The translations under genes were made by a program, and so were the position numbers. From a virus, in IMG/VR virus record IMGVR_UViG_3300017752_003105, positions 1-20,881 of that record: 20,881 bases of DNA, one strand, 5' to 3'. Every line of letters begins with the position of its first letter. Position 1 is the first letter of the stretch. The notes below the pieces were generated by a model, which was given only the letters and a program-made list of their open reading frames with translations, made no database searches and was not told the origin of the DNA. This document shows, piece after piece, positions 7,166-18,022 of this stretch.

Positions 7166-7194
7166 TTGACATTTTGGTCATAATATGCTACTCT
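7166..7194 (+). promoter_or_regulatory. Sigma70-like promoter for the VWA gene
   Basis: A perfect -35 TTGACA (7166-7171) is followed after 17 bases by TACTCT (7189-7194), with TG at 7186-7187 in the extended -10 position. The -10 itself is weak (3 of 6). The predicted transcript would start near 7201, and GAGGAG precedes ATG 7220. The first ten bases, TTGACATTTT, are identical to the promoter at 9993. A 5-bp inverted repeat, CTCTA-AGAA-TAGAG (7191-7204), overlaps the -10 and start site. Confidence 0.6.
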
Positions 7195-13388: not shown

Positions 13389-13413
13389 CATTTCCTTTTG
13401 TATGATGTATAAA
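13385..13413 (+). promoter_or_regulatory. Strong sigma70-like promoter for gene 45
   Basis: TTGACA (13385-13390), then exactly 17 bases, then TATAAA (13408-13413), 5 of 6 to consensus. The same stretch reads TATAAATG (13408-13415), one base from the T4 late box, so it could serve early and late. A start near 13420 excludes the in-frame ATG at 13413 and leaves AGAGG before ATG 13446. Confidence 0.75.
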
Positions 13414-13445
13414 TGATTAATGGTGAAAAGAAAGAGGACTATATT

Positions 13446-14102
13446 ATGAATATTTCGAAACCAACCCTTGAAGTTCTGAAGAACTTCGCAACTATCAACA
13501 CGAACATTCTGGTTCGTGAGGGTAGCACCCTTGCCACTATCAGTAACGGCAAGAATATTTTCTCCCGCGCAACTGTGGGTGAAACCTTTAGTAAAGAGTT
13601 TGCAATCTATGACCTCAACAGCCTGTTGGGTCTGCTGACATTTACTGAAGATCCTGACCTCGACTTGGGTGACGAGAGCCTGAAAATCAATAGCGGTAAT
13701 GCTGAATTTGAATACTTCTATGCTGACCCTTCGATTATCGTAGCTGCTCCCGATCGCACTATCGAAGTCGATAACTTCTATGAGTTTGAGTTGACCAAAG
13801 ATGAGATCGTGAATATTACACGTGCTGCATCTGTTATCAATGCACCTGTATTGAGTGTCGTTGGTCGCGATGGTAAAGTAACTCTGTCTGTTGGCGATCC
13901 GTCAACCCCTCGTAGCAATACTTTCCGTCAAGTAATCGGTGAGACTGACAAAGAGTTTGATTGTCGCCTCGCTGTTGAGAACTTTAAAGTAATTGCTGGC
14001 GACTATCGTGTTGTTCTGTCACAGAAGAAGTTTATGTTCCTTGACAACAAAGCTGCTGACCTGAAGTATTGGTTGGCTCTCGAACCTAACTCAACTATTT
14101 AA
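13446..14102 (+). CDS. 45: gp45 sliding clamp
   Basis: The protein is 218 aa, close to T4 gp45 (228 aa). The N-terminus MNISKPTLEVLKNFATINTN aligns with the T4 start MKLSKDTTALLKNFATINSG. Further shared segments are FAIYDLNSLLGLL and a matching C-terminal part ending LKYWLALEPNST. The trimeric clamp tethers the gp43 polymerase to DNA and, in T4, activates late transcription. ATG 13446 is preferred over 13413 because the promoter -10 covers 13413 and AGAGG lies at the right distance. It is the first gene of the replisome operon, followed after 7 bases by the peroxiredoxin gene. Confidence 0.95.
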   Translation: MNISKPTLEVLKNFATINTNILVREGSTLATISNGKNIFSRATVGETFSKEFAIYDLNSLLGLLTFTEDPDLDLGDESLKINSGNAEFEYFYADPSIIVAAPDRTIEVDNFYEFELTKDEIVNITRAASVINAPVLSVVGRDGKVTLSVGDPSTPRSNTFRQVIGETDKEFDCRLAVENFKVIAGDYRVVLSQKKFMFLDNKAADLKYWLALEPNSTI

Positions 14103-14727: not shown

Positions 14728-15669
14728 ATGAACAAGCAAGATGAATTTCTCTGGGTTGAAAAATACCGTCCACAAAAACTGAGCGAGTGTATCTTACCCT
14801 CCTCTCTCTTGGATACATTCCAACAGTTCGTGGATGCAGGAGAAATATCTAACTTGTTGTTATGTGGCACTGCTGGCACGGGTAAGACGACGGTCGCTCG
14901 TGCGTTGTGTAACGAATTAGGATGTGACTATATTATTATCAACGGCTCTGAGGAGTCTGGTATCGATGTTCTTCGGACAAAGATTAAAGACTTCGCCAGC
15001 ACTGTGTCCTTTGAGGGCAAGCCAAAAGTAGTTATCCTTGACGAAGCAGATTATTTGAATCCTAATTCGACACAACCAGCCTTGCGTGCATTTATTGAGG
15101 AATTCTCCTCTAACTGTCGGTTCATATTTACCTGTAACTTCCGAAACAGGATTATTGAACCACTACACAGTCGGACTACTGTGATTGATTTCAAACTCGG
15201 TAAGTCTGAACGGCAACAGATGGCTGCTCGCTTTATGAAGCGAATGTCAAATATCCTAGATGGGGAGAGTGTTGAGTATTCTGAAAAAGTTCTTGCTGAA
15301 CTTTTGATGAAACACTTCCCTGACTATCGCCGTGTCCTCAATGAACTGCAACGCTACAGTGTGTCTGGTAAAATCGACGAGGGAATCCTTTCTAACCTCG
15401 CTGAAGTAAATACCAAGGCACTGATTGATAGTCTGCGTGATAAAGACTGGAAGAAGATGCGACAGTGGGTCGCGAATAATGTTGACGCTGACCCACAAGG
15501 CGTGTATCGTAAAATCTATGATACGCTCCTCGATAAAGTGGCGCAAGTTCCTCAACTGGTTCTTTTGATCGCAGACTATCAATATAAGGCAGCGTTTGTT
15601 GCCGACCAAGAAATTAATTTGACTGCATGTCTAACGGAGATTATGGCAAATGTTGAGTTTAGAGGTTGA
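14728..15669 (+). CDS. 44: gp44 clamp-loader ATPase subunit
   Basis: The protein is 313 aa, near T4 gp44 (319 aa). It opens FLWVEKYRPQKLSECILP, matching the T4 segment EQKYRPSTIDECILP. Walker A is GTAGTGKTT (47-55) and Walker B is VVILDEAD (101-108). The usual clamp-loader SRC motif reads SRT (148-150). The C-terminal collar region aligns in outline (NFPDFRK in T4, HFPDYRR here). Four gp44 with one gp62 load the gp45 clamp onto primer-template DNA. ATG 14728 has GGAG just upstream (TTAGGAGTGCC). The 3' end overlaps the TauD-like gene by 20 bases. Confidence 0.95.
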   Translation: MNKQDEFLWVEKYRPQKLSECILPSSLLDTFQQFVDAGEISNLLLCGTAGTGKTTVARALCNELGCDYIIINGSEESGIDVLRTKIKDFASTVSFEGKPKVVILDEADYLNPNSTQPALRAFIEEFSSNCRFIFTCNFRNRIIEPLHSRTTVIDFKLGKSERQQMAARFMKRMSNILDGESVEYSEKVLAELLMKHFPDYRRVLNELQRYSVSGKIDEGILSNLAEVNTKALIDSLRDKDWKKMRQWVANNVDADPQGVYRKIYDTLLDKVAQVPQLVLLIADYQYKAAFVADQEINLTACLTEIMANVEFRG

Positions 15670-16453
15670 TTTAAAAAACCCAACAGTAGATACAGCTGAT
15701 ATTGTATCAGAGGCACTTGCTGAACATTTAATTGTTGTAGTAAGAAACCAACAGATTACACCAGAAGAACAATTAACATTCTGTAAGATGATTGGTGATG
15801 TTGAAACACATTGGGATAATGACTGGAAACGTGAGCGTATGGGTAGTTTATCCATCGCTGATGGTGTTACTCGTGTTACGGGTGCTATTGGCCATGATGG
15901 TCGCCCAGGATTATTCCACAAACCAGAGACGCTTGAGTGGCATGCCAATTCTGTCACAAAAGACGACCGACATTCGATTGTTTGGATTTATGCGAATAAA
16001 GGTTCACGGGGGTCGAGGACTAGCTGGATCAATATGCTAAAGGTTTACGAATCCTTGCCATCAGAGATACGGACTGAACTTGAAACAATGAAGATACACA
16101 CCAAGCATGTCGCTGAAGTTAATGGTGGTTCTGAAAAATCTTTCTTTAATGATGTGGTCTCAGAGACAGCGTTTGATGTTGTCCGCGAAAACTCTGAGGG
16201 TCAAAAAGGATTGTATTATCCGTTCTTGCAAATATCTCATTCGCCAACACACGAAGATAAATTTGAAGAACTGCATCAAATAATCGTTGAGCATGCACTA
16301 GATCCCTATTATATGTATCACCACGATTGGATCGATGGTGATGTTGTCATTTCTGATCAGTGGCTGACATTACATCAACGCGAAGCATTTGAGAATATCG
16401 AGGAAAGAGAAATGCATAGAATTGCTTTCAATTATGGAGATAGTAATGCTTGA
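15650..16453 (+). CDS. TauD/TfdA-like Fe(II)/2-oxoglutarate dioxygenase homologue
   Basis: The protein is 267 aa from ATG 15650, with GGAG at 15636-15639. The layout matches E. coli TauD closely. The first metal motif is H98-A-N100 (LEWHAN), then GSRTSWIN, then the distal DVVISDQWLTLHQR with H242. R253 and R257 lie 11 and 15 residues after H242, as TauD R266 (2-oxoglutarate) and R270 (taurine) do after H255. The Fe-binding Asp of TauD (D101) is Asn100 here. The family normally oxidises small substrates with Fe(II), 2-oxoglutarate and oxygen. Substrate here unknown, and activity uncertain because of Asn100. The gene lies between 44 and 62, overlapping both, so it is tightly co-expressed with the clamp loader. 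Confidence 0.85.
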   Translation: MLSLEVDLKNPTVDTADIVSEALAEHLIVVVRNQQITPEEQLTFCKMIGDVETHWDNDWKRERMGSLSIADGVTRVTGAIGHDGRPGLFHKPETLEWHANSVTKDDRHSIVWIYANKGSRGSRTSWINMLKVYESLPSEIRTELETMKIHTKHVAEVNGGSEKSFFNDVVSETAFDVVRENSEGQKGLYYPFLQISHSPTHEDKFEELHQIIVEHALDPYYMYHHDWIDGDVVISDQWLTLHQREAFENIEEREMHRIAFNYGDSNA

Positions 16454-16889
16454 GGGGATGGGCGATCCTGTTGTCACGGTCGACGAGGAACAATTTAAAG
16501 TTAAGAAGAAAGCGATTAGTCCATTCGATTTCGCCAATAGTATCAACTATACAAAAGATAATTTAATCGTTGATGACTGGTCGGAAAAACAATACAATGC
16601 ATTTATCGTGAACAAGGCACTAAGCTATGGTGCTGACACTGTCATCGCTGCTAATGAGATGAACAGTCGCCCACATATCGATAAGAAAGCACAGTATGAT
16701 TTTCTTCGCGGTATCGTGCGCAAGAAAAAGCGTTTCAACAAATGGCTGAAGGCAGAAAAAGAAGAACAACTAGAACTGGTCAAAGAGTATTACGGATACA
16801 ACAACACAAAGGCAGCTGCCGCTCTCCGTATTCTGAATCCTGATCAGATTGCAACGATAAAGAAAAAGCTATCTCGTGGTGGTCAATAG
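16446..16889 (+). CDS. 62: gp62 clamp-loader small subunit
   Basis: The protein is 147 aa from ATG 16446, which has GGAGATAGTA before it. In-frame ATG 16434 and TTG 16389 lie deep in the upstream gene. The core SPFDFANSINYTKDNLIVDD, then EKQYNAFIVNKALSYG, RPHIDKKAQYDFLRG and KKRFNKWLK, fits gp62 as found in marine T4-like phages and loosely matches T4 (FMVENALSQFP, RGKRYGKWAK). It is shorter than T4 gp62 (187 aa). It forms the fifth subunit of the clamp loader with four gp44. Position after 44 and before regA agrees with T4. Its 3' end overlaps the opposite-strand gene by 21 bases, tail to tail. Confidence 0.88.
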   Translation: MLEGMGDPVVTVDEEQFKVKKKAISPFDFANSINYTKDNLIVDDWSEKQYNAFIVNKALSYGADTVIAANEMNSRPHIDKKAQYDFLRGIVRKKKRFNKWLKAEKEEQLELVKEYYGYNNTKAAAALRILNPDQIATIKKKLSRGGQ

Positions 16890-17564
16890 TTGTCTTCCAC
16901 CTAATTCCTTGCGAACATCTACATATTTTCTATAGTAACCAAACTGTATAGCCAAGCTATCACCAGTGTATTTTGAACTACCACCACAGTTATGAAATTT
17001 TTTGTTGTTCAATAAGACTGGTGATTTTATTTTGGCATAATCAACTTCACATACCTTACTTGACTCGTCATCAGAATCATAATAATAAGTCGATCTATAC
17101 TTATCGTAATCAGGGAATAGTGGTATGTTAATATTACAAGACCGCACATAGTCTGGATCTTTGTGTATATGATATGGTCTTGTTACGTCTCTTCCATATA
17201 TAAAACAAACTTCATCGGCGTTATACCGTTCCCTTATTTCATCTATTAACTCATTCCCAATCGCTTCGAATGTCTCTGGTGAATTCATCTTATTGTAAAA
17301 GATAAAGGGTGAAGAAAGTGACTCATTATTATATGTATCCCACATTTCTTTGAGATCCCTTTTATTAGGATCTATGCCAAACTGCTTGAGGTAATCTATG
17401 TAGGGGTTGTTTTTAGTATCGATTGCTTTTTCGATTAAGGTTTGTGTGAAGTTAGACCAATATTGTTGCAGATTTTTTTCTCTCCAAGTATTGATCATAT
17501 ACTCTTGCTCTTCAACTGCAAGTAAATTCTTAACAGGTGAATAGTATTTTTCATTTCTAGCCAT
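16869..17564 (-). CDS. Lone minus-strand gene, 2OG-Fe(II) oxygenase-like
   Basis: The protein is 231 aa from ATG 17564-17562 on the minus strand, stopping at 16871-16869. The C-terminal half resembles phage 2-oxoglutarate/Fe(II) oxygenases. It has PYHIHKDPDYVRSCNINIPL with H134-x-D136, then a Tyr-rich strand (STYYYD), a turn PVLLNNKKFHNCGG with possible third ligand H191, and a final strand LAIQFGYY. A clear 2-oxoglutarate-binding arginine is not evident. The N-terminal half is helical (NTWREKNLQQYWSNFTQTL) with no recognised family. It is the only minus-strand gene in the window and is AT-rich (17 G or C in 17281-17340). No ribosome site precedes the ATG, and a late-promoter box ends 5 bases upstream of it. 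Confidence 0.75.
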   Translation of the reverse strand: MARNEKYYSPVKNLLAVEEQEYMINTWREKNLQQYWSNFTQTLIEKAIDTKNNPYIDYLKQFGIDPNKRDLKEMWDTYNNESLSSPFIFYNKMNSPETFEAIGNELIDEIRERYNADEVCFIYGRDVTRPYHIHKDPDYVRSCNINIPLFPDYDKYRSTYYYDSDDESSKVCEVDYAKIKSPVLLNNKKFHNCGGSSKYTGDSLAIQFGYYRKYVDVRKELGGRQLLTTTR

Positions 17565-17569
17565 ACTGA

Positions 17570-17581
17570 TATTTATAAATA
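17570..17581. promoter_or_regulatory. Palindromic bidirectional late promoter
   Basis: TATTTATAAATA is a perfect 12-bp palindrome. It contains TATAAATA on the + strand (17574-17581) and TATAAATA on the - strand (17577-17570), both exact matches to the T4 late consensus. With T4 geometry (box at -13 to -6) the + transcript starts at 17587, giving a 22-base leader with AAGGA before regA ATG 17609. The - transcript starts at 17564, the A of the minus-strand gene's ATG. The two boxes share four bases, so both directions cannot be occupied at once. Confidence 0.65.
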
Positions 17582-17608
17582 AAAATATAATAATAATAAG
17601 GATCTGTA

Positions 17609-18022
17609 ATGAGTGAAGATTTCTTCGACATTGATTATCCTGGATATGCGCCGTTAGAAATCAAACTTAAAAAGTCAGATGACTTTCTTAAGATCCGCGA
17701 GACCCTTTCTCGCATCGGTGTTGCTTCCAGAAAAGAAAAAGTTTTATACCAATCTTGTCATATTCTGCACAAGAAAGGTCGATATTTCATCACACACTTT
17801 AAAGAGTTGTTTGCACTAGATGGCAAGGATGCCGACTTCGGTGAGGGAGATATCGAACGTCGCAACACCATCGCGAAACTTCTCGCCGACTGGGAACTTC
17901 TTGAAGTTATCAGCCCAGAATTATATGAAACTAAAGCCCCATTGAGTCAAATAAAAGTCCTACCGTTCAAAGAAAAGAGTGAGTGGGAATTAATTACCAA
18001 ATATAATATTGGTAAAAAATAG
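17609..18022 (+). CDS. regA: RegA translational repressor
   Basis: The protein is 137 aa. Its core, DFLKIRETLSRIGVASRK, then VLYQSCHILHKKGRYFITHFKEL, ALDGKDADFG and RRNTIAKLLADWELLEVI, fits T4 RegA (122 aa) along nearly its full length. There is a roughly 20-residue N-terminal part with no T4 equivalent in my memory (MSEDFFDIDYPGYAPLEIKL). RegA binds AU-rich start regions of many early phage mRNAs and blocks their translation, its own included. ATG 17609 has AAGGA at 17598-17602. The leader is AT-only apart from this site (repeated ATA units at 17584-17597), a plausible autoregulatory target. Order 62-regA-43 follows T4. Confidence 0.95.
   Translation: MSEDFFDIDYPGYAPLEIKLKKSDDFLKIRETLSRIGVASRKEKVLYQSCHILHKKGRYFITHFKELFALDGKDADFGEGDIERRNTIAKLLADWELLEVISPELYETKAPLSQIKVLPFKEKSEWELITKYNIGKK

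Follow-up and report, generated by a model that had tools for sequence, protein, structure and literature searches.

A conserved palindrome as the predicted shared core of two divergent late promoters between regA and an oxygenase-like gene in marine T4-like phages

Genomic context of the palindrome

Can a single 12-bp palindrome serve as the late promoter of two genes that are read away from each other, and what would this mean for the control of regA? The question is raised by a 20.9-kb fragment of a marine T4-like virus (IMG/VR record IMGVR_UViG_3300017752_003105; the whole stretch of 20,881 nt is referred to here as the window). Its gene order is 45, peroxiredoxin, 44, TauD-like oxygenase, 62, a minus-strand open reading frame (ORF), regA, and Hsp20, with a DNA polymerase, assigned by eye, further on. 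The nearest relatives of its regA belong to marine phages (Pelagibacter phage Mosig and cyanophages), with ~70% DNA identity. The minus-strand ORF overlaps the 3' end of gene 62 by 21 bp, and gene 62 is listed from its first TTG, with an internal ATG as the probable true start. The clamp-loader cluster holds two probable oxygenases, the TauD/TfdA-type gene and the minus-strand gene. A few other genes in the window have TTGACA-type sigma-70-like sequences at their starts, and two such sequences, at 7166 and, just before gp45, at ~13389-13412, would fit early promoters.

The palindrome sits in the 44-bp gap (17565-17608) between the minus-strand ORF and regA (Table 1). A preliminary description of this DNA had placed it there, between regA and the only minus-strand gene, with an exact TATAAATA on each strand and four bases shared by the two boxes (17574-17577), and the sequence bears out each of these points. 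T4 late promoters carry their box at -13 to -6 (PMC1524935). In both directions the position of TATAAATA fits this arrangement, and the T4 rule returns the same predicted start sites as had been proposed. TATAAATA by itself is not unusual in such AT-rich DNA, with 3 occurrences in the window against 1.2 expected. For the exact 12-mer, Markov models of order 1 to 3 predict ~0.004 occurrences per window; as it was picked by eye, this post hoc figure is weak evidence alone, and the conservation described below is stronger.

Table 1 Features of the palindrome junction and neighboring genes (coordinates are those of the window)
Feature	Coordinates	Strand	Basis or remark
gp45	13413-14102		phrog_223; late-machinery component present in the fragment
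TauD/TfdA-type 2OG dioxygenase	15650-16453		PF02668; between genes 44 and 62
Gene 62, clamp-loader subunit	16389-16889	+	PF16790, phrog_225
Divergent gene (231 aa) with HxD...H and a probable Fe(II)/2-oxoglutarate oxygenase fold	16869-17564	-	Predicted structure and motif
Perfect 12-bp palindrome TATTTATAAATA that contains two overlapping late-promoter boxes	17570-17581		Sequence; conserved in 17 junctions
TATAAATA, predicted late-promoter box for the minus-strand gene	17570-17577	-	Exact match; predicted start 17564
TATAAATA, predicted late-promoter box for regA	17574-17581	+	Exact match; predicted start 17587
Predicted 22-nt regA leader AUAAUAAUAAUAAGGAUCUGUA	17587-17608	+	RB69 RegA consensus-like, beside Shine-Dalgarno-like AAGGA
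regA, translational repressor	17609-18022	+	PF01818 (Pfam, E 3.7e-45), phrog_242

Conservation of the palindrome with the divergent gene

Among 80 regA loci fetched by protein similarity, 50 have an ATAAATA-type box no more than 90 nt upstream of regA. Only two of these boxed loci (L004 and L005) have the palindrome, and both have the divergent gene; in the remaining 48, which lack a divergent gene of this family, TATT never precedes the box. Searches with the minus-strand protein family, and with the palindrome plus the regA start, brought the number of contigs with the divergent gene and regA to 16 (L004 and L005 included), or 17 with the window. The preliminary description held that loss of the palindrome in relatives with the same divergent pair would count against it, and the exact palindrome is kept in all 17 contigs in which a gene of the divergent family adjoins regA; no protein-search match that covers the junction is without it.

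The 17 contigs represent 8 regA lineages at a cutoff of 85% identity at fourfold sites. These sites are on average ~51% identical between lineages, and 28 to 56% identical for pairs that include the window. Fisher's test of the 8 lineages against the 48 loci gives p 7e-10, a value that overstates independence, as the loci in each set are partly related by descent. Because the 12 bases are kept across 8 lineages with strongly diverged fourfold sites, we infer that selection maintains them, among them the TATT, which would serve only the minus-strand box. A palindrome arising by chance was likewise rejected on conservation. Outside the palindrome, the sequence of the gap varies between relatives.

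The plus-strand box is conserved also where the minus-strand gene is missing and so has a role of its own. Judged from these loci, having a late box before regA goes with the marine relatives and not with the palindrome, since T4 has no TATAAATA near regA (none between 27 and 34 kb). The earlier proposal that regA is under late control thus gains support as regards its box but loses its dependence on the palindrome, given that 50 of 80 relatives are boxed.

The minus-strand gene

The minus-strand protein is probably an Fe(II)/2-oxoglutarate (2OG) oxygenase with predicted metal binding. Residues H134, D136, and H191, which make up an HxD...H motif, are invariant in 19 sequences (the minus-strand protein and 18 relatives). 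The AlphaFold model has a mean pLDDT of 84.6, and its best Foldseek matches in the PDB consist almost entirely of Fe(II)/2OG dioxygenases, so that the model resembles double-stranded beta-helix folds at E values of about 1e-5 but with modest TM scores of only 0.3 to 0.4. Pfam, PHROGs, and PDB sequence searches returned no credible family. A protein search with the single sequence from the window found no match, its relatives being reached only via an alignment, and the isolate phage collection contained no convincing relative of the family.

Between gene 62 and regA this oxygenase-like family is fast-evolving and sometimes forms tandem repeats of up to four copies (16869-17564 in the window; L216-L223, L378, L441, L456, and L457). 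In contigs L441, L456, and L457 regA is almost the same and the regA leader identical, and the minus-strand proteins of the first two share only 50% and 41% identity with the L457 protein. L374 and L458 have exactly the same regA leader with different left sides, and the left side of L458 matches that of L405, whose regA leader differs. In these few contigs the left and right histories seem to join close to the palindrome or right at it, which would suit an exchange of cassettes up to the shared promoter.

Box-to-ATG spacing and predicted leaderless mRNAs

A point absent from the preliminary description is that the predicted minus-strand start, with the start codon of this gene assumed, coincides with the A of its ATG. 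In 12 of the 17 junctions the distance from the minus-strand box to the ATG is exactly 5 nt; in the other five it is 21 nt from the box, and one left-side sequence is common to all five. With a spacing of 5 nt, transcription from a T4-type start would begin at the A of the ATG and the mRNA would therefore be leaderless.

The same spacing recurs beyond this locus. Across 12 marine T4-like sequence sets, 21 genes have a TATAAATA-to-ATG distance of exactly 5 nt, some of them orthologues common to related genomes and so not all independent, against 1, 0, 1, and 0 genes at distances of 3, 4, 6, and 7 nt. The reversed motif gives no gene at 5 nt in these sets, boxes that begin with C, A, or G give no 5-nt spike, and T4 has no TATAAATA-to-ATG distance of 5 nt. 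The spike, seen in L271-L279 (G024), L280-L286 (Mosig), L287-L293 (Melnitz), and L316-L331, is compatible with the start geometry expected of a T4-type late promoter. Reading from the spacing, we infer that marine T4-like phages have a class of late mRNAs without leaders, one not seen in T4. For pelagimyophages, a published late-promoter prediction performed poorly (PMC7029224).

A wider scan for CAT-N5-palindrome gave many unrelated matches and is biased by its own pattern, and it was excluded as evidence on spacing. Perfectly symmetric CAT-N5-TATTTATAAATA-N5-ATG junctions occur in L086, L109, L124, L139, L142, and L182, and both divergent genes of such pairs would be leaderless.

The conservation and the spacing together bear on the possibility that only the plus-strand box is a promoter, serving regA, with the minus-strand box incidental and inherited by descent and the minus-strand gene expressed from elsewhere. 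A plus-strand box is indeed widespread before regA, and any TATAAATA already contains the TATA center, so that the palindrome needs only four more bases. Those four bases, however, are kept in 8 lineages despite strongly diverged silent sites and are absent in the 48 loci without the minus-strand gene, and the minus-strand spacing of 5 nt equals the genome-wide spike. We therefore regard a solitary plus-strand promoter as improbable.

The regA leader

The predicted regA leader begins AUAAUAAUAAUAAGGA and carries, at the ribosome-binding site, an A/U-rich sequence that resembles AAUAAUAAUAAnA, the sequence that RB69 RegA protein selects by SELEX (PMC3014915). AAUAAUA-like 7-mers are present in 19 of 50 boxed regA leaders, in 0 of 30 unboxed ones, and at 32 of 472 other starts. 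The leader is thus a possible autogenous RegA operator, with AUAAUAAUAAUAAGGAUCUGUAAUG as the candidate stretch, and RegA may limit its own late mRNA through this site.

The stretch from gene 62 to regA showed no terminator-like site, so early read-through into regA is possible. An exact TATAAT at 17586-17591, considered as an early -10 element for regA, was rejected, as it has no good -35 and is unconserved in relatives.

A proposed shared core for two divergent late promoters

We propose that the palindrome is the shared core of two divergent T4-type late promoters. Together with the sliding clamp and gp55, the phage's sigma factor for late genes, RNA polymerase would open it in either direction, yielding rightwards from ~17587 a regA mRNA whose short leader resembles a RegA operator, and leftwards from ~17564 a leaderless mRNA for the probable Fe(II)/2OG oxygenase. 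Each box is probably a genuine late promoter; the two diverge and overlap, and they would not be occupied together, since they share four bases and the geometry would exclude two polymerases from one copy. A single DNA copy would therefore be read in one direction at a time. With the many genome copies expected late in infection, both genes would be expressed, and the palindrome would set their ratio rather than act as a switch. Taken as a whole, this reading, with its directional choice, leaderless minus-strand mRNA, and ratio, is one that we hold with good confidence. Of the either/or switch put forward in the preliminary description, mutual exclusion on each DNA copy survives on geometric grounds, but nothing indicates a regulated choice, and at the T4 counterpart described below both directions are reportedly transcribed late. 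Antisense RNA over the 3' end of gene 62 is a plausible further prediction, because the two ORFs overlap and no terminator-like site intervenes.

In T4, a late promoter is activated in a direction that depends on which strand is nicked, and hence on how the clamp is oriented (PMC2988020). The choice between regA and the oxygenase at a symmetric promoter might then be set by the direction of the replication fork or by the nicked strand. We consider this unlikely; if true, the palindrome would naturally report the polarity of replication.

A host sigma-70 early promoter over the gap might instead mainly drive the minus-strand gene or regA, the late boxes mattering little. There is a 9-of-12 match on the minus strand (17617-17590) and another match on the plus strand (17566-17594). 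Such weak matches, however, occur at chance level (6 found against 7.4 expected in shuffles), and the gap that would hold such a promoter differs between relatives outside the palindrome. We find this explanation as hard to credit as that of a lone plus-strand promoter. Least of all do we favor a binding site for a dimeric regulator, instead of or besides a late promoter: perfect twofold symmetry within a divergent gap would suit one, but each half is exactly a T4 late-promoter box positioned for its gene, and one half persists in relatives that lack the symmetry, which leaves this explanation very improbable.

Comparison with known systems

The preferred reading, two late promoters sharing one core, has a counterpart in T4 itself, where the identical 12-mer TATTTATAAATA occurs once (116450-116461), between the divergent genes 26 (-) and 51 (+). 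Overlapping promoters and divergent late transcription of this T4 baseplate gene cluster (26/51) were reportedly described by Scarlato et al. in Virology in 1989. The two loci have the same overlapping 12-mer between divergent genes and differ in what flanks it: the T4 pair are both baseplate genes with leaders, the box lying 17 and 21 nt from the ATG, whereas in the window the palindrome separates regA from a probable oxygenase gene, whose minus-strand mRNA is predicted to be leaderless. Together with the presence of the palindrome in 17 of 17 junctions with the divergent gene and 0 of 48 loci without it, the T4 12-mer lends good support to the original suggestion of two overlapping divergent late promoters, and the junction is very probably a new, well-conserved example of a known shared-promoter type, its transcription being predicted from sequence. 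With respect to RegA control as known from T4 and RB69, the predicted leader here resembles the RB69 SELEX sequence, and T4 regA has no consensus late box.

Such a junction would tie regA, which represses early genes, to the late program. Being conserved and naturally symmetric, it would also allow the choice of direction by polymerase and clamp to be addressed on one short DNA.

In the cyanophages S-PM2 and Syn9 the late-promoter box is NATAAATA, with the same box and position rule (PMC2984593). The exact palindrome is absent from Syn9, S-PM2, Syn33, Mosig, and Melnitz. In all, 13 T4-like sequence sets hold five palindromes, four of them between divergent genes, and two marine genomes, G024 and G014, have one between another divergent gene pair. 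A conserved gene whose product starts MAYQGKFRPKN or similar also has the palindrome with the 5-nt ATG spacing in many contigs, opposite a longer divergent ORF (L084, L099, L100, L121, L122, L131, L133, and L200); its protein may resemble a T4 head-completion protein.
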